From assembly GCF_037078405.1 (NCBI RefSeq), contig NZ_JAYMGZ010000004.1:1-64000 (forward strand): a stretch of DNA of 64,000 bases, given 5' to 3'. Both the position numbers and the translations under genes were made by a program. Position 1 is the first letter of the stretch. Each line of letters begins with the position of its first letter. Below are positions 10,955 through 30,189 of this stretch, in pieces. Under the pieces are notes generated by a model that was given only the letters and a program-made list of their open reading frames with translations, did no database searches and was not told the DNA's origin. The stretch comes from Haloarcula sp. DT43. GTDB lineage: Archaea > Halobacteriota > Halobacteria > Halobacteriales > Haloarculaceae.

Positions 10955-13756
10955 TTACGTGCCCGCGTCGGCCGTGTCCGCGGCCATCGGGGCGCGGGAC
11001 TCGCCGCCCTGCTGTAGCGATATCGGTTCGAGTTCGACGGTCGCGGCGTCGTCGTCCTCGCCGATGACCTGCCCCTCGGTGACGTCGGTCGTGCCGGTGA
11101 ACCCGGTCCGGTTCCCGTTCGCGGTTCCGACCGCGGTGAACTGGTACTGGGTCTCGGCGCGGACGCTCACGTTCGTGTACCCTTCATCGGTCCCCCACTC
11201 GTCGTAGCCGGTCGTCGAGTAGGGCACGGTCATCTCGAAGTTCCCGTTCTGGTCGGTCCGGGTCCGCTGACGGTAGATGAACGTCTCGTTCGTCGCGGGG
11301 TTGTACATCCGCACGGCGGCCCGCACCGTCGTGTTGGCCGGCCCGCTCCCGTCCACCGTCGCACCGGGGACGCGCTCGAAAATCTTCGTCCAGGCAGAGT
11401 GCTGGTACTGCGGACTGTTCGGGAACGCCTCGGTTTCGCTGGAGCCGACGAGGCGGTAGTGCTCCATCGCCGGCACCCGCTCGCTCGGCGCGTCGCCGTA
11501 GCCGCCGAGTTGCGAGGTCGCGTCCTGTTCGACGTACTGACGGGCCTGTTCGAGCGACTGGAACTGGCGGATTACCTGGCCCTGCTGTTGGCCCTCCGGC
11601 TCCTGTTCGTTGGTCGGCGCGCCGCGGTACTGCACGCCCTGGCTCGTCTGTTTGTTCTCCCAGTCGATGACAATCGGCTGGGGCTCGGCGGCGCTCCCGT
11701 GGAAGCGGTACAGGCGGGCGACCGTGGTCTCGTAGTAGGCCTGCCGCTGGAACGTCACCTGCTGGAGCCCACCCTGGGACTGGATATACAGCCGACTGTA
11801 GTAATCACTGGTCTGGGCTCCGTCGACGAACGCCGGCGGGGCGAAGAACTTCCCGCCGATGTTGCCGTTGGTCTCGGCCATCATCCAGTCGACGGCGACG
11901 TAGCGCGTCTTCGCGTCGTCCTCGTCCGTGCTGTCGAGGATATTGTTCGCCCGTGTCTCGTTCTGTGCGATGAGGAACGGCGCGGCCGTGTCAGTCCCCT
12001 GCTGGAACGGGTTCGCATTCGGGACCCGCTCGGCCCTGGTGGTAATCCAGTGCCCGTAGTCCCACCACGACAGGACGCCGTACTGCCCTTCCTGGTAGTC
12101 GAAGTCGTCCTGCTTCTGATAGGTGCCGTAGTAGTCGAGCGTCGCCTCACCACCGGAGCCGTACGCTCCCTCGGCGGGCGTGTTCCCTTCCATCCACTGC
12201 AGGCTCTCGTCCCAAGCCTGGATACTTTGATCGGGGCCGGTGGAGCCCGCCTCGACCGGCGACGCACCGAAGGCAAACAGCGGGACCACGATGACGAGAA
12301 TGACTGTGAGGACGGTCAGGACCTGATAGTACTCGATGCCGTCGTCGGCGCTGAGGTCGAACCAGACGATGAAGCGACTGACGAGCATCCCCGACAGCAC
12401 CGCAATCGGCGCGACGAGGTAGTACGCGAACCGCCGCTGGGTGAACGTGGCCAGCAGGATGAACAGCGCCCAGACGACGACCAGTAGCTCCTCTGCGGGC
12501 GCGTCGTCCGAAAGGAACTGCTTCCCGAGCAGGACGAGGCCGCCGATGCCCGCGACGATGACGGCGAACCCGTGGCGGTCGAACAGGACGCCGGCGTTCC
12601 GGAGCGGCGAGGCCTCGCCGACGGTGCCGGCCGTCTCGCTGATGCTGAACCCGACGACCCGCATGACGTTTCGGCTGAAGAACTCCCACAGGCTCGGGGT
12701 CAGCACGGCCATCAGCACGGCCCCGAAAGCGAGGATTCCGAACACGGTCGCGGGGTAGACGTACCGGCCGTACTCGCGTTGCTCCATGAACCGGGCCAGC
12801 CACGCCATGAACACGCAGCCGAAGGCGACTGCCAGCGCGAGCCCGGGCTGTAGCAGCGATTGTGACGTTGCGGTAATGTCTATGACGCTAACCCGCGACG
12901 CACTTAGCACGGCCGCCGACGTCATCGTTATCGCGCCCGCGATGGCCGTGTGTTCCGGGCTACTGTCGTGGACGTACTCGAGACACAGCCGGACGAGGAA
13001 GAAGACGCCGAGGATACCGAGCAGGAGCACGCCGGGCGGCCAGACCCACAGATACAGCGCAATCGCCACGCCGCCGAGCACGGACCAGCTGATGGTGTCC
13101 CGCAGCGCGTTGACGTCCCGCTCCAGGAACTGCTCGTAGACCGGCTTGTCCCGCGCGGCGACGCTGACCGCCACCATGACGCCGAGGACCCCGAGGACCT
13201 GGAAGAGCGCCTCGGCGACGTGGTGGTCGGAGAACCCGACGAGACTGCGCTGCAAGAGCGACCCCGTCGAGAACGCGAGCACGGTGACCGCGGTCACGCC
13301 GCCGATGCGGCCGCCGAGTCGCCGTCCGATGAGGTACGTCGGGACCGCGACGAGCGTCCCGAACACGGCCGGCGCGAGCAGGACCGTCATAGCGACCGTC
13401 TGGTCGCTGGGCGACCCCAGCCCGACAATCAGCGCCGCGGTCGCGATTAGCTGGTCGAACAGCGTCCCGAACTGGCCGTTGCTGGTGCCGTAGGGGAAGG
13501 CCGTCCACGGGTCAAACGGCATCGTCGAGGGCCAGTTCTGCACGACGTACTGCGTCGAGCGGTAGTGATACCAGGCGTCGTTGCCGCTGAAAAGCACCTC
13601 GCCGTCGACGATGAAGTTCTGCCAGCTCCGGACGCGATTCCACAGCATGAACCCGAGCAGTACCAGGAGGACCGGAATGTGGTACCAGCGCTCGGCCCAC
13701 TCCAGGGCGGACTCGAGTTCGGGGTTGTCGTCAAGATAGCCCCGTGATTGACTCAT
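10955..13756 (-). CDS. aglB: Dolichyl-phosphooligosaccharide-protein glycotransferase AglB
   Basis: A 933-residue oligosaccharyltransferase (STT3/AglB). Residues 1-480 are multi-pass membrane helices containing GNDAWYHYRS and SFSDHH-like catalytic loops (SLVGFSDHHVAE). The lumen-type domain carries WWDYG at about 564-568, which recognises the Thr/Ser of the N-x-S/T sequon. The long acidic C-terminal domain is typical of haloarchaea. It transfers the lipid-linked glycan to Asn of S-layer and other surface proteins outside the cell. The start MSQSRGYL lies 29 bases from a TATA box. It is divergent from an AglG-like gene. Confidence 0.95.
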   Translation of the reverse strand: MSQSRGYLDDNPELESALEWAERWYHIPVLLVLLGFMLWNRVRSWQNFIVDGEVLFSGNDAWYHYRSTQYVVQNWPSTMPFDPWTAFPYGTSNGQFGTLFDQLIATAALIVGLGSPSDQTVAMTVLLAPAVFGTLVAVPTYLIGRRLGGRIGGVTAVTVLAFSTGSLLQRSLVGFSDHHVAEALFQVLGVLGVMVAVSVAARDKPVYEQFLERDVNALRDTISWSVLGGVAIALYLWVWPPGVLLLGILGVFFLVRLCLEYVHDSSPEHTAIAGAITMTSAAVLSASRVSVIDITATSQSLLQPGLALAVAFGCVFMAWLARFMEQREYGRYVYPATVFGILAFGAVLMAVLTPSLWEFFSRNVMRVVGFSISETAGTVGEASPLRNAGVLFDRHGFAVIVAGIGGLVLLGKQFLSDDAPAEELLVVVWALFILLATFTQRRFAYYLVAPIAVLSGMLVSRFIVWFDLSADDGIEYYQVLTVLTVILVIVVPLFAFGASPVEAGSTGPDQSIQAWDESLQWMEGNTPAEGAYGSGGEATLDYYGTYQKQDDFDYQEGQYGVLSWWDYGHWITTRAERVPNANPFQQGTDTAAPFLIAQNETRANNILDSTDEDDAKTRYVAVDWMMAETNGNIGGKFFAPPAFVDGAQTSDYYSRLYIQSQGGLQQVTFQRQAYYETTVARLYRFHGSAAEPQPIVIDWENKQTSQGVQYRGAPTNEQEPEGQQQGQVIRQFQSLEQARQYVEQDATSQLGGYGDAPSERVPAMEHYRLVGSSETEAFPNSPQYQHSAWTKIFERVPGATVDGSGPANTTVRAAVRMYNPATNETFIYRQRTRTDQNGNFEMTVPYSTTGYDEWGTDEGYTNVSVRAETQYQFTAVGTANGNRTGFTGTTDVTEGQVIGEDDDAATVELEPISLQQGGESRAPMAADTADAGT

Positions 13757-13781
13757 TGCACGGAAAAACTGCCAAGGCGCG

Positions 13782-13789
13782 CATAAGCC
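13782..13789 (-). promoter_or_regulatory. TATA-like element of aglB
   Basis: The minus strand reads GGCTTATG about 29 bases before the aglB ATG at 13756, so a leaderless start at MSQSRGYL fits. Confidence 0.5.
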
Positions 13790-13852
13790 TTTTGACCTCT
13801 GTGCGGGCGGAGGATGGAAACGCCTAACAGCACCGGTTCCACACCTCCGACC

Positions 13853-14788
13853 ATGCGAGTCTCGGTCGTGCTCTGTACGCACACGATGGAGCGGTACGGC
13901 GACTGTCGGGCGGCGGCCGAGAGCGTCCTAGCCCAGACCTACGACGACGTGGAACTCGTGTTGGTCTCGGACGGCGACCGGGACGTGTACGAACAGTACG
14001 AGTCCGAGTTCGGCGACCGGGACGACGTCCTGACCCACTGTAACGACGAGAACGTCGGCCTGCTGGAGAGTCGGAACAACGGGGCCGAAGTCGCCACCGG
14101 CGACGTCGTCGCTTTCATCGACGACGACGCTGTCGCCGACGAGGCGTGGGTCGCGGCGTTAGTCGATGCCTACGAGCGGCACGACGCGCTCGCGGTCGGC
14201 GGCCGGATGACGCCGGCGTGGGTCGCCGGCAAACCGGCGTTCCTCCCCGAGGAGTTCTACTGGCTCATCGGCGTCACCCACCGCGGGTTCGGCCCGAACG
14301 GCGACCCCGACGAACCCGGCGTGGTGCGCAACACCTTCGGCTCGAACATCTCCTTCGACCGGGACGTGTTCCTGGACCTGGGCGGCTTCGAGGACGATAT
14401 CGGCGGCCGACAGGGCGAGAAGAACCTCCAGGGCGGCGAGACGGAACTCTGCGCGCGCCTGCGAACCGAGTACGACGAAGGGGTGTACTACACGCCCGAC
14501 GCCCTGGTCGCGCACAAGATATTCGACTACCGGACCGACCCCGGGTGGCTCGTGGACCGCGCGTTCTGGCAGGGCTACTCCAAGCGCGGGATGGAGGTGT
14601 TCGTTCCGGAGTCGACCGGCGCGGAGTCGGACTTCCTCGGGGACCTCTTGTTCCGGTTCGCGCCGTCGCGTCTCCGAAATCTCGTCGAATCCCCGTCGCT
14701 CGGGGCCGTCCTGCAACTGTGCTTCCTGTTTCTGCTCACCGGTAGCGTCGGCGTCGGCTACCTCTACGGGATGTACGTCTGGCGATAG
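13853..14788 (+). CDS. aglG: AglG-like glycosyltransferase family 2
   Basis: A 311-residue GT2 enzyme that begins MRVSVVLCTHTMERYGDC, close to the start of Haloferax AglG. FIDDDAV (Asp90-92) is the metal/nucleotide-sugar site. NTFGSNISFDRDVFLDLGGF and GGETELCARL mark the acceptor half. A C-terminal membrane helix (about 287-308) anchors it. AglG adds a hexuronic acid to dolichol-phosphate-linked sugar. The start is chosen by AglG alignment over an in-frame ATG 13 codons upstream. It is divergent from aglB with 96 bases between. The sugar used here is inferred. Confidence 0.82.
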   Translation: MRVSVVLCTHTMERYGDCRAAAESVLAQTYDDVELVLVSDGDRDVYEQYESEFGDRDDVLTHCNDENVGLLESRNNGAEVATGDVVAFIDDDAVADEAWVAALVDAYERHDALAVGGRMTPAWVAGKPAFLPEEFYWLIGVTHRGFGPNGDPDEPGVVRNTFGSNISFDRDVFLDLGGFEDDIGGRQGEKNLQGGETELCARLRTEYDEGVYYTPDALVAHKIFDYRTDPGWLVDRAFWQGYSKRGMEVFVPESTGAESDFLGDLLFRFAPSRLRNLVESPSLGAVLQLCFLFLLTGSVGVGYLYGMYVWR

Positions 14789-14816: not shown

Positions 14817-16268
14817 TCAGTTCAGTACCGAGTCCAGTACCTCGGTGGCCTCGCCGAACGTCAGGACGCCGGAGACGTGGCTGCCGAGCGCGTAGACGCC
14901 GAGGCCCACGAGCGGGAGCACGCTCAGGTCGACGAACCACGGCCCGTACGGTTCCAGTGCGAGCAACAGCAGGGTCGTGCCGATGCCGAGAGCGAGCACT
15001 CGGGCCGCCGGGAACCCGGTGAGCGGCCTGAGACCGACGTTGCGCGCCGCCACCACGTGGGTAACCGCCATGAGCCCGTACGCGGTCGAGGTACCGATGG
15101 CCGCGCCGACGATGCCGATTCGCGGTATCAGGACCACGTTCAAGACGACGTTCACCACCACCGACACGCCGGTCGCGAACAGTAACTGCCGCAGGTGTCC
15201 GCCGGCCTGTAACACCGGCCAGATGACCCGTGCGATAGCGAACCCGAGCACGCCCGGCAGGAGCACCTGTAACGGTCGGACGCTCGCCTCGTACGGCGCG
15301 CCGAAGTACACGGTGAGGAACTGCTCGCCCAGGACGAACACGCCGGCGACGAGCAGTACGGTGAGGACGACGACGTACCGGAGGAGCCGCGACAGCAGCG
15401 ACGTGAGACGGTCTATCCGCCCGTCCGCCCAGAGGTCCGCCGTCGACTGAATCATCACCATCTCCATCGCAACCGAGACGACCCACATGAACTCAGAGAC
15501 CTGCAGTGCCGCCCGATAGTGGCCGGTCGTCGCCGCGTCCCAGAAGTGGCTGACCAGCAGGATGTCGACCTTGTACATGCTGGTCAGGAGGAGCGTGAGC
15601 ACCATCGACTGGGCCCCGAACCGAACGAGCGGCCGCGTGTAGGTCCGGAGAGCCAGGCCACGTATCGAGGGGAGTACGGCGGCCTCACGGAAGGCCAGCG
15701 CCGTCGAGAGGAGCCCGGTGAGCAAAAACCCGGTCGCGAACCCGGCGAAGACTCCCGGCACGCCGTACCCGGCCCCGGCGAGCGCGAGCCCCACGACGGC
15801 GAGGATGACCGACCGGGCCGGGACGAGCGGCTCGGCGAGTTCCTCCCGCTTGTAGGCGTGGAGCACGCCGCGTCCGAAGTAGTACAACTGCTCCCCGACG
15901 ACCGCACCGAGCATCAGGTACAGCGCCGTCTGGAGCGTCCCGTCGGTAACCCAGCTGATGAGCCCGGCCAGCGCCGGAATCCCGACGAGGAGGCTCCCGA
16001 TGTGGAGTGCGAACGACGTGGTGACGACGCTCGCTCGCTCCTCGCCGTTCTCCCGCGAGGCGTAGGTCTTGGTCGCCTCGAACAGCCCGAGGTTCAGTAT
16101 CTTCCGGCTCGGGAGGAAAATCGCCATCACGAGCGCGTACGTCCCGAACCCGTCTTCGCCGACGGTACGGACCAGCAACGGGATGAAGACGGCGAAGGTC
16201 AGGAGCCGGCCGAGGTCGCCGGTGAACACCGAGAGGTAGCCTTTCAGGATGCTTTCGTCATCGGCCAT
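14817..16268 (-). CDS. Oligosaccharide flippase (Wzx/MATE-like), AglR-type
   Basis: A polytopic protein of about 483 residues with 12-14 hydrophobic helices, of the polysaccharide biosynthesis/Wzx type. Segments such as LLVRTVGEDGFGTYALVMAIF, LNLGLFEATKTYAS and VVNVVLNVVLIPRIGIVGAAIGT are typical. It likely flips the lipid-linked glycan across the membrane for AglB. The ATG overlaps the stop of the sulfatase-like gene upstream (TGATG), so they are co-translated. A second flippase lies at 22895-24295, so the island has two. Confidence 0.88.
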   Translation of the reverse strand: MADDESILKGYLSVFTGDLGRLLTFAVFIPLLVRTVGEDGFGTYALVMAIFLPSRKILNLGLFEATKTYASRENGEERASVVTTSFALHIGSLLVGIPALAGLISWVTDGTLQTALYLMLGAVVGEQLYYFGRGVLHAYKREELAEPLVPARSVILAVVGLALAGAGYGVPGVFAGFATGFLLTGLLSTALAFREAAVLPSIRGLALRTYTRPLVRFGAQSMVLTLLLTSMYKVDILLVSHFWDAATTGHYRAALQVSEFMWVVSVAMEMVMIQSTADLWADGRIDRLTSLLSRLLRYVVVLTVLLVAGVFVLGEQFLTVYFGAPYEASVRPLQVLLPGVLGFAIARVIWPVLQAGGHLRQLLFATGVSVVVNVVLNVVLIPRIGIVGAAIGTSTAYGLMAVTHVVAARNVGLRPLTGFPAARVLALGIGTTLLLLALEPYGPWFVDLSVLPLVGLGVYALGSHVSGVLTFGEATEVLDSVLN

Positions 16269-17371
16269 CACTCGACGTAACCGAGGTCGCGCATCTGTTG
16301 CTTGAGGTCCTCGTCGACGTTATCGCGCTCGACGGCGACCGTCTCGCCGTTCCGCACCATCGACACGTCGGCGTCGCGGCTCACGATTTTCGTCTCGAAG
16401 TCCTGCCACGCGACGGTCGTCGTTCCGTGCCACGGGGCGATGGTGAGCGTCTGGTCCCGGGGCGTCTCGCGGACGTCTTTCCCGTGCCACGCCGACGGAA
16501 TCTCGCCGCCGACTTCGCCCAGCAGCGACGGGGCGATGTCGAGAACGCTGAGCGGTTCACACAGCGAGAGGTCGTTCGTCGCCACGGGCACGGTGGTCAG
16601 CGCGTCGACTACCCGTCGCCGCTGTGGCTGGTGGAAGTAGTGCCCGTCCTCGCCGAACTCGTCGCCGTGGTCCGAACTGAACACCACGAGCGGGTCCGAC
16701 GAGTCCACCGAGTCGACGAGGCGCTCTATCTCGGCGTCCGCCCGGGAGAGCGTCTGGCGGTACTTCCGCGTAATCGTCTCCTTCTCGTCCGCACTGAGCT
16801 TCTCGGGGGCGAACAGCGCCTTCCGGTCTATCTCCTTGGGCACGGCGTCGTCACCGAGGCCGTACGGGCGGTGCGTGCCCATCAGGTGGAGCCACATGAA
16901 CCGCGGCCCCGACTCGTCGTTGAACGCCGCGATGGCGTTGTCGATGAGTTCGTCGTCGGGGAGCCGGTTCGATAGCTTCGCGTGGGGCGGCCGGAAGCGG
17001 TGGTAGACCTTCCGGATGAGGTCGAACTGGGAGGCGAACTGTCTGAGCGGGTTCCCGCGGTTGCCCGCCTCGCAGTAGTTCTCGTAGACGTCGAACCCGG
17101 CGTCGAACCCGAACCGCGGGTCGGTGTGGGGAGACGAGGAGAGGCCAATTGTCGTGTACCCGGTCCGGGAGAACGCTTCTGCGACCGTCGGGGACATCGC
17201 GCGGGACTCGATAGCCCCCTGATAGGAGGCGGTCAGAATACTGGCGAGGCTCGGCCGCGTGTAGTGGGCCCCGGTCACGCCCCGGTGGTTCGAGAACGTA
17301 GAGACGAACTCCATCGCGTCCAGGAAATCGTGACGGACGGAGTCCGCAGTAACGAAGATGACATCCCTCAT
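16268..17371 (-). CDS. Sulfatase-superfamily protein with Thr nucleophile
   Basis: A 367-residue alkaline-phosphatase-superfamily protein. The N-terminal metal segment is IFVTADSVRHDF, the nucleophile segment is HYTRPSLASILT (Thr38), and the second metal segment is FSSDHGDEFGE. True sulfatases need a Cys or Ser that becomes formylglycine. Here the residue in that place is Thr, as in phosphoglycerol or phosphoethanolamine transferases. It may add or remove phosphate- or sulfate-linked groups on glycans. It ends MRDLGYVE, a tail shared with three neighbours. It overlaps the flippase start. Confidence 0.75.
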   Translation of the reverse strand: MRDVIFVTADSVRHDFLDAMEFVSTFSNHRGVTGAHYTRPSLASILTASYQGAIESRAMSPTVAEAFSRTGYTTIGLSSSPHTDPRFGFDAGFDVYENYCEAGNRGNPLRQFASQFDLIRKVYHRFRPPHAKLSNRLPDDELIDNAIAAFNDESGPRFMWLHLMGTHRPYGLGDDAVPKEIDRKALFAPEKLSADEKETITRKYRQTLSRADAEIERLVDSVDSSDPLVVFSSDHGDEFGEDGHYFHQPQRRRVVDALTTVPVATNDLSLCEPLSVLDIAPSLLGEVGGEIPSAWHGKDVRETPRDQTLTIAPWHGTTTVAWQDFETKIVSRDADVSMVRNGETVAVERDNVDEDLKQQMRDLGYVE

Positions 17372-17410
17372 TGCTACCAGCACCGATTGAGAAACACTTG
17401 AGTCCTGCGG

Positions 17411-18706
17411 TCAGTCCACGTAGCCGAGGTCTTTCAGCATCTCCTGAGTGTCGGCGTCGACGTCCTGGTCGCTGATGTCGCTTCCGGCGCTGTCCCACGC
17501 CTGGAGCTTCTCGCGGAGGTCGTCGTACGGTGTCCCGTCGGTCGCGCCGGCGGCGACGAGGTCGTTCGTCTCGTCAGGGTCCGCCGAGAGGTCGTACAGT
17601 TCGTGGTCGGTCCCCTCACGAATGAGCTTCCACCCCGGCGTGCGGAGGCCGATAGACTCGGCGAACTCCGGATAGGCGGTCAGGAACGCGTCGCGGTCGC
17701 CCGGCGGCGTGCCGTCGTCGTTCACACGGAGGCTCCGCCCTTCGAACGCGTCCGGGACGTCGACGCCCAGCAGGTCACACACCGTGGGCGCGATGTCGAT
17801 TGTCCGGACCTGGTCGGAGACGGTCTCCGCGTCGATGTCGGGATGGTGGAACGCGAGCGGGACGTGCAGTTCCTCGTCGTAGAGCTGGCGGCCGTGGCCC
17901 GTGTAGCCGTGGTCGTCCAGCGCTTCCCCGTGGTCGGCCGTGAGAATCACCAGCGTCTCCTCGCGGCGGTTTCGCGCTTCGAGTTCGTCGAGCAACTGCT
18001 CGACGTACCCGTCGACGAGCTTCATCGCGGCCGTGTACTCGTCGTGTGTGTCGAGGTCGCCACGGTCGTAGTTCCGCGGCTCGTGCATGTCGAAGTAGTG
18101 GACCCAGCCGAAGAACGGGCCGTCGACGCGGTCGAGCTGGTCGACGGCGTCCTGTGTCACGCTCTTTGCCGTTCGGCAGTGCAGTCTGATGAGGCCCGTC
18201 TGTCGCAGGAGTGACTTGAGGTTCCACTGCTCCGTCCCGATGTCCTTCACCGCGCCGAACACCGTGTTGAACGTCTTCGTGTCGTATATCCGGCTCAGAA
18301 TCGGGTACAGCGTATCGTAGGAGCCGCCGCCGTCACAGTACTCGTCGAACCCCCGTCCCAGTCCCGAGTGCTCGTCGCTGAGGTGGTCGACGCTGACGAC
18401 GCCGAACGTGTCGTGCCCCGCGTCCTGTACCGACTCCGCGAGCACGGGGACAGACTCGTCGAGCCCCCAGCCGTTCTCCTGGACGCCGTGAGTGTGAGGG
18501 TACGAGGCGGTCATGAACGACGTGAGGCTCGGGTCGGTCGTGTTTGCCACGGTGAACGCCTGGTCGAAGTACAACCCCTCCGTCGCCAGCCGTTCGAGCG
18601 TCGGAACGATGCCCTCCGAGATGCCCCGCTGGAGCCAGTCTTCGCGGAGACAGTCGATGCTGACGAGCAGTACGTTCTCGATGGCGTGTGAGTCGAAATC
18701 TTGCAT
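17411..18706 (-). CDS. Sulfatase-superfamily protein with Thr nucleophile
   Basis: A 431-residue alkaline-phosphatase-superfamily protein. VLLVSIDCLREDW supplies the first metal ligands. FTVANTTDPSLTSFMTASYP places Thr57 in the nucleophile position, and VILTADHGEALDDHGYTGHG supplies the later metal and His residues. LYDLSADPDETNDL is a common sulfatase C-terminal motif. It ends LKDLGYVD. It lies two bases after the GT2 gene and 39 bases before the next sulfatase-like gene, so one transcript is likely. Hydrolase or transferase activity on glycans is possible; true sulfatase activity is unlikely without Cys or Ser. Confidence 0.78.
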   Translation of the reverse strand: MQDFDSHAIENVLLVSIDCLREDWLQRGISEGIVPTLERLATEGLYFDQAFTVANTTDPSLTSFMTASYPHTHGVQENGWGLDESVPVLAESVQDAGHDTFGVVSVDHLSDEHSGLGRGFDEYCDGGGSYDTLYPILSRIYDTKTFNTVFGAVKDIGTEQWNLKSLLRQTGLIRLHCRTAKSVTQDAVDQLDRVDGPFFGWVHYFDMHEPRNYDRGDLDTHDEYTAAMKLVDGYVEQLLDELEARNRREETLVILTADHGEALDDHGYTGHGRQLYDEELHVPLAFHHPDIDAETVSDQVRTIDIAPTVCDLLGVDVPDAFEGRSLRVNDDGTPPGDRDAFLTAYPEFAESIGLRTPGWKLIREGTDHELYDLSADPDETNDLVAAGATDGTPYDDLREKLQAWDSAGSDISDQDVDADTQEMLKDLGYVD

Positions 18707-18708
18707 TG

Positions 18709-19713
18709 TCAGTCCTCACCGATGACGGCGTTGACGCGGTACGGTCGCTCGTCCCGGTACTGCTGTTTCACTATCATCTCCGCGAGGAACCCGAACATCA
18801 CCAGCTGGACGCCGAACAGGACCAGCGCGACGGTCAGGATGAGCCGCGGGACGTGCGGTGCCAGCGACTGTCCGAAGGCGTACTTGAGAAACACCATGTG
18901 TGACCCGATGAGGCCACCGGCCGTCATCAGGACGAGCCCGATACCGCCGAAGAAATGCGACGGCCGGGTCGAAAACCGGTTCCAGAAGACGTGAAACAGG
19001 AGGTCGACGAACCCCTTGACCAGCCGCTTCATCCCGTACTTCGTCTCGCCGGCGGTCCGCGGTCGGTGGTCGACGGGCAGTTCCGTTATCCTGTACCCCC
19101 GCTTGTGTAGCTTCGCCGGGATGTACCGGTGGCCCTCCCCGTAGAGGTCTATCTCCTTGAGTCCGGTGGCCCGGTAGGCGGTCAGCGTACACCCGAAGTC
19201 GTGGATGTCCGGTCCGGTGAGCTTCGCCAGCCGCGTCTGTATCGCCGACGGAATCGTCTTCGAGAGCGGGTCGTCCCGGTCGCGCCGCCAGCCGCTGACA
19301 CAGTCGTAGCCCTCCTCCAGTTTCGTGAGGAGCTTCGGAATGTCCGCCGGGTTGTTCTGCCGGTCGGCGTCCATCGTCACGATGTACTCCCCCGTGGCGT
19401 AGTCGATGCCGGCGGCCAGGGCGGCGCTCTGCCCGAAGTTGCGCCGGAGCAAGACCCCGGTCACCTCGTCGCGGTCCGTCGCTAACTGCCGTATCGTCTC
19501 GGCCGTCCCGTCCGTGCTCCCGTCGTCGACCACCACTACCTCGTAGGGTCCGTACGTCGTATTGTCACGGAACGTGGACTGTATTTCGTCTATCAGCGGC
19601 TCCAGGTTCTCGGACTCGTTGTAGGCAGGAAGCACGATAGACGTCTGGACGTCACTGTCGGTGTCTCTCGCTGCTACGACCGACCCATCCGGCATGCTCC
19701 CTGTCTTTGCCAT
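18709..19713 (-). CDS. Dolichol-phosphate hexosyltransferase-like GT2
   Basis: A 334-residue GT2 enzyme of the DPM1/GtrB type. SIVLPAYNESENLEPLIDE is followed by VVVVDDGSTDGT, MDADRQNNP (Asp115-x-Asp117) and FGCTLTAYRATGLKEI, with two C-terminal membrane helices (about 245-320). Such enzymes load a sugar from a nucleotide sugar onto dolichol phosphate on the cytoplasmic face. It is the first gene of a four-gene minus-strand run (GT2, two sulfatase-like genes, flippase). The sugar cannot be told from sequence. Confidence 0.87.
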   Translation of the reverse strand: MAKTGSMPDGSVVAARDTDSDVQTSIVLPAYNESENLEPLIDEIQSTFRDNTTYGPYEVVVVDDGSTDGTAETIRQLATDRDEVTGVLLRRNFGQSAALAAGIDYATGEYIVTMDADRQNNPADIPKLLTKLEEGYDCVSGWRRDRDDPLSKTIPSAIQTRLAKLTGPDIHDFGCTLTAYRATGLKEIDLYGEGHRYIPAKLHKRGYRITELPVDHRPRTAGETKYGMKRLVKGFVDLLFHVFWNRFSTRPSHFFGGIGLVLMTAGGLIGSHMVFLKYAFGQSLAPHVPRLILTVALVLFGVQLVMFGFLAEMIVKQQYRDERPYRVNAVIGED

Positions 19714-25646: not shown

Positions 25647-26624
25647 ATGGTCCTCGTAGTGCTGGGTATCGATGCACTCGACCCCGAACTAGTCGATTCG
25701 ACGGCGCATCCGAACCTGACCCTCGCCGACCACCACGCTATCGAGACGATACGGAGCGTCGAGGGCGGCCCCAGCACGCACGAACTCTGGCCGACGATAA
25801 TCACCGGCCTGACGCCGCCGGAGCACGGCATCACGCTCGAGGACGGCGTCGCCTGGGAGAATCCCGTCCTCCGGTTCGGCAGCGCCGCCGCGGACTACCT
25901 CCTTCCGTCGGGGCTCCAGACGCGTCTCGGCGCGTGGCTCCTGAACAACACCGAACAGGACGCGTTCCGGATTCCGGCGACCTACTACGAGGAGCACGGG
26001 CTGACGACGGTCTTCGACGGCCGCGAAGCGGCTCCCATCGGCATCCCGAACTACGTGGTCGACCCCGACTCCGAGGACCGCGAGCACAGCCTCCGGCGGA
26101 ACCTCGGGGACCTCTTCGAGCGGGACCTCGAAGCGAAGGGCGGCCACTCCTCGACGGACCCGGCGCTGTTCTACGAACAGTGCCTGGAGATGTCGATGGT
26201 CCGCCTCGCCCGCGCACGCCGGGCGCTCAGGGGCGGCCGACACGAACTGGTGTTCGCCTACACGAGCGGGCTCGACCTCATCGGCCACGTCGCCTACGAA
26301 CAGCCCTCGCTGCAGGACCGCGCCTACGAGGAACTCGACGAGTTCGTCGGCGAGGTCCGGGACGACCTCGGCGACGACGACGAACTGCTGCTGGTCAGCG
26401 ACCACGGTCTGCAGGACGGCGTTCACACCGACGAGGCGATGGTCGCTGGGACCGACGCCGACATGGTCGACGCCATCGAGAGCGTCGTCGACGTCCGGGC
26501 GGCCATCGAGGCCGAACTCGACGAGAACGACCACACGTCGACGCCGCAGGTCACGGCGACCGAGGACGGCGACCGCTCGGGCGAGGAAGTCAAGGAACAC
26601 CTCGAAGACCTCGGGTACATGTAG
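25647..26624 (+). CDS. Type I phosphodiesterase/nucleotide pyrophosphatase family protein
   Basis: A 325-residue alkaline-phosphatase-superfamily protein of the NPP type. VLGIDALDPEL gives the first metal Asp; GPSTHELWPTIITGLTPPEHG places Thr44 as nucleophile. FAYTSGLDLIGHVAYEQ and LLVSDHGLQDGVH give later metal ligands. NPP enzymes cleave phosphodiester bonds, so glycan or lipid phosphodiesters are candidate substrates. It ends LEDLGYM like its three relatives here. TATA-like CTTAAG at 25614-25619 supports the start MVLVVLG. Two bases separate its stop from the next ATG. Confidence 0.78.
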   Translation: MVLVVLGIDALDPELVDSTAHPNLTLADHHAIETIRSVEGGPSTHELWPTIITGLTPPEHGITLEDGVAWENPVLRFGSAAADYLLPSGLQTRLGAWLLNNTEQDAFRIPATYYEEHGLTTVFDGREAAPIGIPNYVVDPDSEDREHSLRRNLGDLFERDLEAKGGHSSTDPALFYEQCLEMSMVRLARARRALRGGRHELVFAYTSGLDLIGHVAYEQPSLQDRAYEELDEFVGEVRDDLGDDDELLLVSDHGLQDGVHTDEAMVAGTDADMVDAIESVVDVRAAIEAELDENDHTSTPQVTATEDGDRSGEEVKEHLEDLGYM

Positions 26625-26626
26625 CC

Positions 26627-28081
26627 ATGTCGGCCGACCCGAACGTCCTCCTAGTCGTCCTCGACAGCGCCCGTGCACGGAACTGCAGCGCATACGGCCA
26701 CGTCAACGAGACGACGCCGTTCCTCGAATCGTTCGCCGCCGAGCGCGCGACGCTGTACGAACAGGCACGGGCCCCCGGTGCCCGGAGCGTCACGAGCCAC
26801 GCGAGCATCTTCTCCGGTCTGCACGTCGAAGAACACGGCGTCGTCTCGGCGGGCCACCGGCTCGACCCCTCGGCGTCGATATTCTCGCAGTTGCGCGAGG
26901 ACGGCTACGGCACGGGCGTGTTCACCGAGAACGACTGGCTGACGGCGGTCGACGTGGGCCTGCGCGACGGGTTCGACGAAATCGTCGGCGCGCGGAACGT
27001 CCCGTTCCCGGAGGCCGTCAATCCACACGAGTTCGTCTCCAACGAGGGGCGGGGCCAGTACGCGGAGTTCGTCAGACTCGCGCTGACCGACGACGCGCCG
27101 CTCCGGTCGCTGGCCAACGGCGTGGCGACGAAGCTCCAGTCGGACTACAAGCGGTTCCTCCCGGACAGCGTCAGGGCCTCGACGCCGGCGGACGTCTACG
27201 TCGACGCGCTGCTGGACTGGAGCGACCGCCAGGACGGCCCGTGGGCGGCCTGCCTCAATCTGATGGACCCCCACATCCCCTACGAGCCGCTGCCGGAGTA
27301 CGACGAGTGGGGCGGGTCGAGAGCGGCCGCCCTCCAGTCGTCCTTCGAGGACCAGAAGTGGGAGTTCAACGGCGGCCACCGACCCTGGTGGCAGAAGAAG
27401 GCGGTCGAGTCGCTGTACGACGGCGGGATTCGCCAGGCCGACGCGGAACTCGAACGGCTCGTCGCGGCGCTCGAACGGCGCGGCGAACTTGACGACACGC
27501 TGGTCGTCGTCACGAGCGACCACGGCGAGGGCTTCGGCGAACCGAGCGACGTTCGCCCGGGCGTCCGAGTGGCCGAACACGGCGTGGCGATTCACGACAG
27601 CGTGCTCCACGTCCCACTCATCGTCCGCTATCCGGGCCAGACCGAGGCCCGGCGCGTCGACCGCCCCGCGTCGCTAGTGGAGTTCCCGCGGGTCGTGAAC
27701 CGCGTTCGGGAGGGCGAACACCCGTCTGCGGGCTTCTGTCCCGACGGCCCCGTCCTCGCTACCGCGGTGGGGCTCGACGAGCCGCTCCAGGAGCGGGCGG
27801 GCGCGTACGTCGACGACCTCTCCCCGTGGACGGCCATCTCCCGGGCGGTGTTCGAGAACGACGACGAGGGAGTTCGCAAGCACTGCACCAACCGCGACCG
27901 CGCGGCGACGGTGGTCAGCCGCGACGCCCAGGTCTCGTACAAGGTGTCCGACGACGGCGCGGAGCGCGTCGACCGCGCGTTCGAGTCCATCGAGGACCGC
28001 GGCGTCAAGACGGCCGGCGAGGACTTCGACGACCTCGACGACGGGACCTACCAGCGGCTGGAAGACCTCGGCTACGTCTGA
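26627..28081 (+). CDS. Sulfatase family protein with Ser nucleophile
   Basis: A 484-residue sulfatase-family protein. NVLLVVLDSARARNCSAYGH is the metal-binding start, GARSVTSHASIFSGLH places Ser54 in the nucleophile position, and VVVTSDHGEGFGE is the later metal motif, followed by GVAIHDSVLHVPLIVRYPG. A Ser in this place is compatible with formylglycine formation, though the strict SxPxR context is absent (VTSHAS). It ends LEDLGYV. It follows the phosphodiesterase-like gene by two bases and overlaps the TrmB-type gene at their 3' ends by ten bases. Confidence 0.8.
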   Translation: MSADPNVLLVVLDSARARNCSAYGHVNETTPFLESFAAERATLYEQARAPGARSVTSHASIFSGLHVEEHGVVSAGHRLDPSASIFSQLREDGYGTGVFTENDWLTAVDVGLRDGFDEIVGARNVPFPEAVNPHEFVSNEGRGQYAEFVRLALTDDAPLRSLANGVATKLQSDYKRFLPDSVRASTPADVYVDALLDWSDRQDGPWAACLNLMDPHIPYEPLPEYDEWGGSRAAALQSSFEDQKWEFNGGHRPWWQKKAVESLYDGGIRQADAELERLVAALERRGELDDTLVVVTSDHGEGFGEPSDVRPGVRVAEHGVAIHDSVLHVPLIVRYPGQTEARRVDRPASLVEFPRVVNRVREGEHPSAGFCPDGPVLATAVGLDEPLQERAGAYVDDLSPWTAISRAVFENDDEGVRKHCTNRDRAATVVSRDAQVSYKVSDDGAERVDRAFESIEDRGVKTAGEDFDDLDDGTYQRLEDLGYV

Positions 28082-29140: not shown

Positions 29141-29166
29141 GCCTCCCCGTGGCCGACGTTGGGACG

Positions 29167-30189
29167 ATGGCCGACCGAGACGACGTCTGTATACTGTTGC
29201 CGACATTCAACGAGGCCGAGACCATCGAGTCGGTCGTGTCCGGGTTCCGCGAGCAGGGGTTCGACAACGTCCTCGTCGTCGACGGCGGGTCGACCGACGG
29301 GACGCGGGACATCGCCGAAGCGGCCGGCGCGCGGGTCGTCGAGCAGTCCGGCTCGGGGAAGGGACAGGCCGTCAGAGAGGCCGTCACCCGCCACGTCGAG
29401 CAGCCCTATGTCCTGATGGCCGACGGCGACGCGACCTACCGTCCCGACGAGGCCGACCGGCTGCTCGAACCGCTGCTGTCCGGTCAGGCCGCCCACGTCA
29501 TCGGCAACCGGTTTGCGAACATGCAGCCCGGCGCGATGACGAAACTCAATCAGATAGGCAACCGCGTCATCAACAGCGCCTTCGGGACGATTCACGGCCG
29601 GGACCTCACCGACATCCTCTCGGGGTATCGCGCGTTCACGCGCCAGTCCTTCCAGCGGAGTTCGCTGACGGCCTCGGGCTTCGGCATCGAGACGGAGATG
29701 GCCGTCGAGTGTGTCAAACACAACATCTCGACGGCGGTGGTGCCGATAACCTACCAGCCCCGCCCCGACGAGTCCGACACGAACCTCCGGCCGTTCCGGG
29801 ACGGCGCGACCATCATCCTGACGCTGTACCAGATGGCGAAGACCAACAACCCGCTGTTTTACTTCGGCAGCGTCGGCCTCGGAAGCACCGTGGTCGGCTT
29901 CCTGCTCGGGGCGTACGTCGCTTACGACTGGGTCGTCAACAGCATTTCACACGAGGTCATCGCCGTCATCGGCTCGTTCGCTATCCTGCTGGGGATTCAG
30001 CTGCTCATGTTCGGCGTCCTGTCGGACATGCTCGTGGCGGTGAACCGCGAGCAGACGCGCCGGCTGGAAGACATCGCTGTCCAGCTCAGCCGGGAGAGTC
30101 ACGCCGCGTCGACGGACGTGTTCGAGGACCAGCGGGGCGACGACGCGGAGGCGGACGCGGTGGTGTCGCCACACCAGCCTGACGAGTAG
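29167..30189 (+). CDS. aglJ: Dolichol-phosphate glycosyltransferase AglJ
   Basis: A 340-residue GT2 enzyme. VCILLPTFNEAETIESVVSGF, VLVVDGGSTDGTRDIA, EQSGSGKGQAVREAV and ADGDATYRPDEADRL (Asp86-x-Asp88) match Haloferax AglJ. The middle NRFANMQPGAMTKLNQIGNRVIN and ILSGYRAFTRQSF are typical of the family, and two C-terminal membrane helices (about 230-285) are followed by an acidic tail. AglJ adds the first hexose of the N-glycan to dolichol phosphate. It closes the glycosylation island about 16 kb from aglB. Confidence 0.9.
   Translation: MADRDDVCILLPTFNEAETIESVVSGFREQGFDNVLVVDGGSTDGTRDIAEAAGARVVEQSGSGKGQAVREAVTRHVEQPYVLMADGDATYRPDEADRLLEPLLSGQAAHVIGNRFANMQPGAMTKLNQIGNRVINSAFGTIHGRDLTDILSGYRAFTRQSFQRSSLTASGFGIETEMAVECVKHNISTAVVPITYQPRPDESDTNLRPFRDGATIILTLYQMAKTNNPLFYFGSVGLGSTVVGFLLGAYVAYDWVVNSISHEVIAVIGSFAILLGIQLLMFGVLSDMLVAVNREQTRRLEDIAVQLSRESHAASTDVFEDQRGDDAEADAVVSPHQPDE

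Follow-up and report, generated by a model that had tools for sequence, protein, structure and literature searches.

Two Thr-type sulfatase-like genes in the window

We examined two adjacent genes, here called S1 and S2, in a stretch of 64,000 nucleotides from Haloarcula sp. DT43 (contig NZ_JAYMGZ010000004.1, positions 1 to 64,000; hereafter the window). Both encode PF00884 (sulfatase family) proteins with a threonine (Thr) in place of the formylglycine residue, and they are very likely Thr-nucleophile enzymes of a gene block around an ortholog of AepG, the dolichol-phosphate glucuronosyltransferase of Haloarcula hispanica. Both genes lie where an original prediction, made from the window's sequence, had put them:

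16268..17383 (-): S1, PF00884 protein of 371 aa with Thr42 at the nucleophile position (open reading frame listing, profile match, alignment)
17246..17266 (-): nucleophile motif HYTRPSL of S1 (translation, alignment)
16664..16672 (-): metal motif DHG of S1, Asp238 and His239 (translation, alignment)
16271..16285 (-): conserved C-terminal tail LGYVE of S1 (alignment, tail survey)
17411..18706 (-): S2, PF00884 protein of 431 aa with Thr57 at the nucleophile position (open reading frame listing, profile match, alignment)
18524..18541 (-): nucleophile motif TTDPSL of S2 (translation, alignment)
17927..17935 (-): metal motif DHG of S2, Asp258 and His259 (translation, alignment)
17414..17428 (-): conserved C-terminal tail LGYVD of S2 (alignment, tail survey)

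The PF00884 profile matched S1 with 80 bits and S2 with 131.7 bits (cut-off 25 bits). An invariant Met5 suggests that S1 probably starts 12 bases downstream of the listed start.

The original prediction had put Thr at the formylglycine position of both proteins. Alignment, in which a different residue might have occupied the nucleophile position, gave Thr in S1 and in S2: Thr57 of S2 aligned onto the Cys of the phosphonate monoester hydrolase SpPMH (4upk; printed alignment), and an S1-based profile placed its Thr onto the Cys that serves choline sulfatase as nucleophile (6fny; alignment read by eye). In the printed alignments, the Arg of C/S-x-P-x-R was replaced by Leu in both proteins. The motifs were invariant in their groups of orthologs (HYTRPSL in 9 out of 9 S1-group sequences, TTDPSL in 6 out of 6 S2-group sequences), so the Thr motif is not a chance occurrence. 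The YTRPSL core was also present at all 10 named S1-group loci, whose species may overlap with those of the 9 S1-group sequences.

Thr at the nucleophile position is a class feature

Thr at this position was not peculiar to S1 and S2. At E 0.001, PF00884 had 14 matches in the DT43 genome, of which 13 exceeded the cut-off. As read by eye, the nucleophile position was Thr in 8, Ser in 4, without a clear residue in 2 (G11, G14) and Cys in none. Among haloarchaeal relatives (89 open reading frames, 104 aligned stretches), the nucleophile column comprised 69 Thr, 8 Ser, 2 other residues, 25 unaligned stretches and no Cys, a tally that is biased by the choice of sequences by similarity and has at least one Thr row that looks spurious. 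A further 141 stretches, taken from named loci of archaea and bacteria, also picked by similarity and, like the haloarchaeal set, including some spurious alignments, gave 112 Thr (one being the S1 reference), 5 Ser, 2 Gly, 1 Cys and 21 unaligned. The single Cys row belonged to a bystander gene whose motif is the canonical CSPTRAALLTG, so the column was read correctly.

We found no match to the formylglycine-generating enzyme (PF03781) in the DT43 genome at E 0.001, in a search that did not include the anaerobic anSME; the same profile had matches in 4 of the 14 control genomes. In the Haloferax volcanii control, PF00884 was matched and PF03781 was not among the matches. Passages of the SulfAtlas paper (PMC5066984) state that 30 out of 59 PF00884 seed proteins carry Thr, that no derivation of formylglycine from Thr has been demonstrated, and that experiments are needed before Thr-type proteins (example TXNXE) can be classed as sulfatases. 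The presence of Thr in PF00884 proteins is thus already known in general.

The view in the original prediction that S1 and S2 do not remove sulfate is supported by the Thr at the nucleophile position, the replaced Arg of CxPxR and the lack of a formylglycine-generating enzyme match. Formylglycine sulfatases (SulfAtlas family S1, e.g. BT1596 and choline sulfatase) share with our two proteins the fold and the Asp plus Asp-His metal side, and the His that serves the leaving group is also present in S1 (by eye). The differences, again by eye, are a Thr in place of Cys/Ser and a Leu in place of Arg and, relative to choline sulfatase, Ser instead of Lys102 and His instead of the presumed Lys309.

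Predicted fold and active site

Both proteins have a sulfatase fold in their AlphaFold models (S1, mean pLDDT 87.2 and pTM 0.87; S2, mean pLDDT 85.3 and pTM 0.85). The top structural match of S1 was BT1596 (5g2u), a 2-O glycosaminoglycan sulfatase (Z 29.3, rmsd 2.6, 286 aligned), and that of S2 was 6hr5 (Z 39.7, rmsd 2.6, 339 aligned); matches within 1 Z were taken as tied. EptA, MCR and LtaS were absent among the 50 structural matches listed for S1 and S2, an absence that carries no weight. In sequence searches, S1 and S2 matched only models of the alkaline-phosphatase superfamily and SGSH_C, and the sulfotransferase domain PF00685 had no match in the DT43 genome, where PF13469 was not searched.

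Residues Asp14, Thr42, His171, Asp238, His239 and His251 of S1 were invariant in 34 out of 34 sequences, distant paralogs included. The EptA/MCR residue set (Asp, Thr, Asp-His and two further His) is present by sequence alignment: the Thr of S1 itself was aligned against sulfatases and the active-site residues of the C-terminal half against EptA/MCR, the set outside that half being as generally described for these enzymes. The Thr nucleophile and the Asp/Glu-Thr-Asp-His metal set are shared with EptA, MCR and LtaS, and the two accessory His with EptA and MCR, whereas the N-terminal membrane domain of these enzymes has no counterpart in S1 or S2. EptA, MCR and LtaS are membrane-anchored, act on the outer face and use phospholipid donors. 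We found no transmembrane-like segment in S1 or S2 (maximum 19-residue hydropathy 1.06 and 1.04, respectively; threshold 1.6), which suggests that both are cytosolic. From the active-site residues, Thr-based chemistry is plausible and formylglycine-type hydrolysis is not.

A gene block shared with Haloarcula hispanica

S1 and S2 are located in a cluster that extends from AglB to AglJ, with the following other genes:

10955..13882 (-): AglB oligosaccharyltransferase (TIGR04154, 918 bits)
13814..14788 (+): AglG homolog (NF041394, 489 bits)
14817..16271 (-): FlipA, Wzx-type flippase, overlapping the end of S1 by 4 bases (profile match)
18709..19713 (-): GT2, ortholog of H. hispanica AepG, the dolichol-phosphate (DolP) glucuronosyltransferase (66.7% identity over 330 aa; function from PMC9943897)
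19928..21643 (+): PMT-type membrane glycosyltransferase that may use the DolP-sugar once flipped (profile match)
25934..28081 (+): S3, third PF00884 protein of the cluster, with Ser at the nucleophile position (SVTSHASIFSG; profile match); its true start is probably near 26.6 kb
29149..30189 (+): AglJ, far end of the cluster (TIGR04182, 460 bits)

After AglB and AglG, the order is FlipA, S1, S2, GT2, PMT, GT4, FlipB, GT4, S3, TrmB and AglJ. GT2, S2, S1 and FlipA run in the same direction, with a gap of 2 bases between GT2 and S2 besides the overlap of S1 with FlipA, so these four genes likely form one operon. The flippase and glycosyltransferase setting already noted in the original prediction holds, and S1 and S2 belong to a glycan/dolichol-lipid gene block.

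In H. hispanica, AepG (HAH_1206) is reported as a DolP-glucuronosyltransferase in PMC9943897, where the hexuronic acid (HexA) lipids DolP-HexA (m/z 1093.7) and DolP-HexA-SO3 (m/z 1173.7) were lost in the aepG deletion and returned on complementation. The same source describes S-layer glycans unaltered by the deletion, the sugar going to an acidic exopolysaccharide (EPS), and PMC9091367 describes EPS sulfation, stained with methylene blue, as reduced in the aepG mutant. The main texts of both papers contain no mention of a sulfotransferase, a sulfatase or HAH_1204.

We compared eight primer strings of PMC9943897 with locus L110 (genome G084, same genus): seven matched with 0 mismatches, and the eighth, half of a chimeric primer, with 6. 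By these matches, L110 is either the H. hispanica locus itself or nearly identical to it, with aepG fixed by the primer strings at L110:11225-12259. Against the window, one string (GLF, 17 bases) was exact and the other matches had 4-9 mismatches. The gene order in L110 (AglB, AglG, S1 ortholog, LPG_synthase_TM protein, aepG) fits HAH_1202 to HAH_1206, and by gene count the S1 ortholog would be HAH_1204. This ortholog carries HYTRPSL and shares 49.7% identity with S1, which was its best PF00884 match in the DT43 genome (394 bits; next 85.5), while the best window open reading frame for AepG was GT2 (455 bits; next 63.5).

The HAH_1202-HAH_1214 cluster (PMC9943897) thus has a same-genus counterpart in the window, with AglB, AglG, the S1 ortholog, AepG, PMT, GT4 and FlipB in order. 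AglB, AglG, PMT, both GT4 proteins and FlipB were 81-93% identical between the window and L110. The cluster is thus conserved except for the S1/GT2/flippase part, which forms its variable core. In contrast to H. hispanica, the window has the additional S2, and its flippase slot holds the Wzx-type FlipA (14817-16271) in place of an LPG_synthase_TM protein (L110:10234-11199). S3, too, is related to a protein of the H. hispanica cluster (71% over 161 aa, truncated where the locus stops).

Distribution of S1 and S2

At E 1e-20 or better, S2 had matches in 43 and S1 in 22 of the 116 genomes of the order. Close orthologs were found at 9 loci for the S1-group (47% identity or more, window included) and at 6 loci for the S2-group (~54% or more). 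An AepG-type GT2 was present within 10 kb of S2 at all 6 S2-group loci (window, L104-L108) and within 10 kb of S1 at 6 of the 9 S1-group loci (window, L104, L105, L106, L108, L110). At the other three (L109, L111, L112) an AglJ-like GT2 adjoins S1; AglJ-like GT2 proteins carried a DUF2304 region in 4 out of 4 scanned cases, at S1-group loci L111, L130, L131 and L134. Among the best 80 matches listed for genome_contigs we identified at least 10 named S1-group loci, after which identity fell to 31%; these comprised Salinarchaeum (74%) and Halosimplex, Halorientalis, Halorhabdus, Halapricum and two metagenome-assembled genomes (47-52%).

Agl30 and Agl31 of Halobacterium salinarum

The main text of PMC11980604 describes two sulfatase-like proteins encoded near aglB, Agl30 (VNG1056C) and Agl31 (VNG1057C), that are needed to sulfate iduronic acid (IdoA) and glucuronic acid (GlcA) in Halobacterium salinarum. 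With Agl30/Agl31 in Hfx. volcanii, glycans were reported as sulfated, ~80 Da heavier in the case of Agl30; Agl31 was soluble and Agl30 membrane-associated, and basal sulfation persisted without both proteins. That text does not mention threonine, formylglycine, 3'-phosphoadenosine 5'-phosphosulfate (PAPS) or a donor. It names BT1596, our top-ranked structural match for S1, as the closest structure for VNG1056C and VNG1063H.

Agl30/Agl31 resemble S1 and S2 in the alkaline-phosphatase fold, the location in an aglB cluster and, on the reading proposed below, the uronic-acid substrates, and the cloning primers of PMC11980604 imply C-termini (HLEDLGYL for Agl30, LEELGYT for Agl31) like the S1 and S2 tails. 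They serve the N-glycan, while acidic EPS is the product suggested by the AepG block. Exact and one-mismatch searches with the Hbt. salinarum primer patterns gave no match in 391 genomes of the class, in genome_contigs or in 26 genomes belonging to a single family. Among the papers listed by our literature searches, none joins Thr-type sulfatases with sulfate transfer, judged by title and opening of the abstract.

The C-terminal LGY tail

An LGY tail (once MGY) ended 14 out of 14 PF00884 proteins of the DT43 genome, compared with 12 out of 1030 other open reading frames. Among relatives, an LGY tail ended 86 of the 89 from haloarchaea and 53 of the 89 from bacteria. The tail was invariant in the alignments of both sets of relatives, yet of low confidence in the AlphaFold models; perhaps it serves docking. 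The idea of a sulfation-specific tail was set aside, since the tail is common in the bacterial relatives and was found on a protein like a ribbon-helix-helix regulator. A genome tail search, which covers one Leu codon and recovers 3 of the 14 known PF00884 proteins, belongs to the same survey.

Several other proteins share this ending. A CysD-like PAPS_reduct-domain protein (L219:1504-2478, minus strand; G000:C4, ~126.2-127.3 kb) ends in MERLRDLGYM, like Thr-type sulfatases. Two short sulfatase-like proteins with an LGY tail (L212:1501-2475 and L214:1501-2571, both minus strand; G000:C3, near 226.4 and 406.3 kb) had no Pfam match at gathering level, and two similar ones lie near aglB in other genomes (L036:12463-13446 and L032:9006-9941). 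Finally, among the APS kinases (APS, adenosine 5'-phosphosulfate) whose ends were read, those at L118 and L120 terminate in ERLKNLGYL and ERLNKLGYLDE, while that of L117/L122 has no such ending.

The sulfate donor

APS kinase (TIGR00455) was surveyed with at most 30 candidates scored per genome, and matches at E 1e-20 or better were listed. It was present in 6 out of 97 haloarchaeal genomes, and had no match at this level in the six genomes of the window's genus (G084 included) or in the Hfx. volcanii control, which also had no match to PF01747 (ATP sulfurylase) or PF00685. A weak match to PF01583 (APS kinase) in the DT43 genome was rejected, the protein being an FtsY-like P-loop protein by sequence. 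If Agl30/Agl31 sulfate glycans in Hfx. volcanii, the donor is probably not PAPS from a standard APS kinase, because none was found there. The CysD-like protein with the LGY tail, which the DT43 genome encodes, scored 79 bits for the PAPS-reductase family (cut-off 195), and a role of this protein as APS supplier is speculation.

Two haloarchaeal clusters (L118:6873-18244 and L121:1570-10690) combine ATP sulfurylase, APS kinase, a sulfotransferase-domain protein, a flippase and PF00884-type genes. Linkage to PAPS clusters was set aside as general proof, because a PF00884-type gene was found within ~10 kb at only 2 of the 6 APS-kinase loci (these two).

Proposed activity and alternatives

S1 and S2 are most likely transferases and not formylglycine sulfatases. 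Lacking a formylglycine hydrate, they would have no easy way out by hydrolysis, and transfer is favoured. As a best single reading, to which we give a probability of about 0.5, S1 sulfates DolP-GlcA; the claim for S2 is made less surely, its role being weaker than that of S1 because S2 had no match in G084. S1 and S2 would be cytosolic transferases of the alkaline-phosphatase superfamily that keep the sulfatase fold and use a plain Thr nucleophile. AepG would make DolP-GlcA, S1 would add sulfate to the GlcA while it is lipid-bound, and S2 would probably act on a second position or sugar. FlipA would then turn the sulfated DolP-sugar over, and a membrane glycosyltransferase would use the flipped sugar for the acidic EPS. 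In the active site, Thr would attack the donor, presumably other than canonical PAPS, to give a sulfo-Thr near one metal (held by Asp, Thr, Asp and His), from which the sugar hydroxyl would accept the group. The glycan or lipid target of the original prediction is kept here, with the acidic EPS taking the place of the N-glycan; the N-glycan as only target was set aside because the aepG deletion left S-layer glycans unchanged (PMC9943897).

Several observations weigh against sulfate transfer by S1, in addition to those that are given below in favour of other readings. The DT43 genome has no clear APS kinase and no PF01747 ATP sulfurylase, so that the donor is missing from the account. At L118 and L121, ordinary sulfotransferase-domain proteins adjoin the Thr-type sulfatases; 3 of the 9 S1-group loci (L109, L111, L112) are without an AepG ortholog, and no match of S2 reached E 1e-20 in the H. 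hispanica-like G084. Methylene blue, the stain behind the reduced EPS sulfation, is not sulfate-specific. The likeness to Agl30/Agl31 is one of description and primer-derived tails, and fragments read from the primers even suggest that Agl30 comes from a remote family of shorter proteins. For neither S1 nor S2 did we find an activity measurement, a mutant or a sugar analysis.

Transfer of a phospho-group, in which Thr would pass phosphoglycerol, phosphoethanolamine or phosphate to DolP-linked or polymer sugars, is in our view rather unlikely. The Thr nucleophile and the EptA/MCR residue set, the part of the original prediction's phospho-group proposal that stood, fit this activity. On its own, S1 had a single PDB sequence match, 4tn0 (E 5e-4), which we take to be of the yjdB/EptC type; phosphoethanolamine transferases made up 6 of its 9 weak NCBIfam matches, all far below cut-off, and the S1-group profile matched them (EptA and MCR first) at E 4e-8 against 1.6e-7 for choline sulfatase, over ~100 residues. 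The masses in the sulfation papers (39.98 m/z at 2+; 80.0 at 1+), as printed, do not separate SO3 from HPO3, so phosphate transfer keeps some of its probability. The reported addition of ~80 Da does not correspond to phosphoethanolamine (123) or glycerol phosphate (154). The phospho-group itself was not specifically supported, since S1 and S2, unlike EptA, MCR and LtaS, are without a membrane-like segment and the closest published cases are called sulfate (Agl30/Agl31, PMC11980604; DolP-HexA-SO3, PMC9943897; EPS, PMC9091367). S2 and the wider profile also matched sulfatases first in sequence searches.

Less likely again is a hydrolytic role, in which a Thr-type phosphodiesterase or phosphatase would recycle intermediates (dolichol-phosphate or nucleotide-sugar) or proof-read them. 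It would agree with the lack of a membrane segment and with the match of S2 to PF01663 (phosphodiesterase/nucleotide pyrophosphatase; E 5e-18), a family that uses a Thr nucleophile. DolP-HexA, as reported in PMC9943897, persists in H. hispanica despite the S1 ortholog, which speaks against such a hydrolase, as does the lack of a PF01663 match of S1 at E 0.001. We regard it as improbable that S1 and S2 are non-catalytic, with a structural or regulatory role such as is said to have been proposed for YejM/PbgA. The fold matches of S1 include YejM structures (6xlp, Z 25.8, rmsd 3.1, 272 aligned), and deletion of VNG1063H, the third sulfatase-like gene in the Hbt. salinarum aglB cluster, left glycan sulfation unaffected according to PMC11980604, so location and fold do not prove sulfation activity; the six active-site residues of S1 are nonetheless invariant in all 34 sequences. 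Ordinary formylglycine sulfatases that remove sulfate would agree with the PF00884 match and the fold, and are very improbable given the origin of formylglycine as stated in PMC5066984, the replaced Arg and the enzyme not found in this genome.

Implications

Sulfate transfer to DolP-GlcA by S1 would provide a candidate gene for the sulfated DolP-GlcA and sulfated EPS of H. hispanica, whose enzyme is unnamed in the main texts of PMC9943897 and PMC9091367, and one shared idea, Thr replacing formylglycine, would join that product with Agl30/Agl31. It also exposes a donor problem, as sulfatase-like proteins are reported to sulfate in Hfx. volcanii, where APS kinase was not found. More tentatively, and with doubt prevailing, haloarchaea may sulfate uronic acids without canonical PAPS, by ping-pong Thr-type 'sulfatases' that pass through a covalent sulfo-Thr and draw on APS or another activated sulfate, and many such transferases may be unrecognised among the Thr-type PF00884 proteins of archaea and bacteria. 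The annotation 'sulfatase' would suggest the opposite reaction for a large class of proteins. If S1 and S2 add a charged group, most likely sulfate, to the lipid-bound GlcA, archaea would have an unusual route to sulfated surface sugars.

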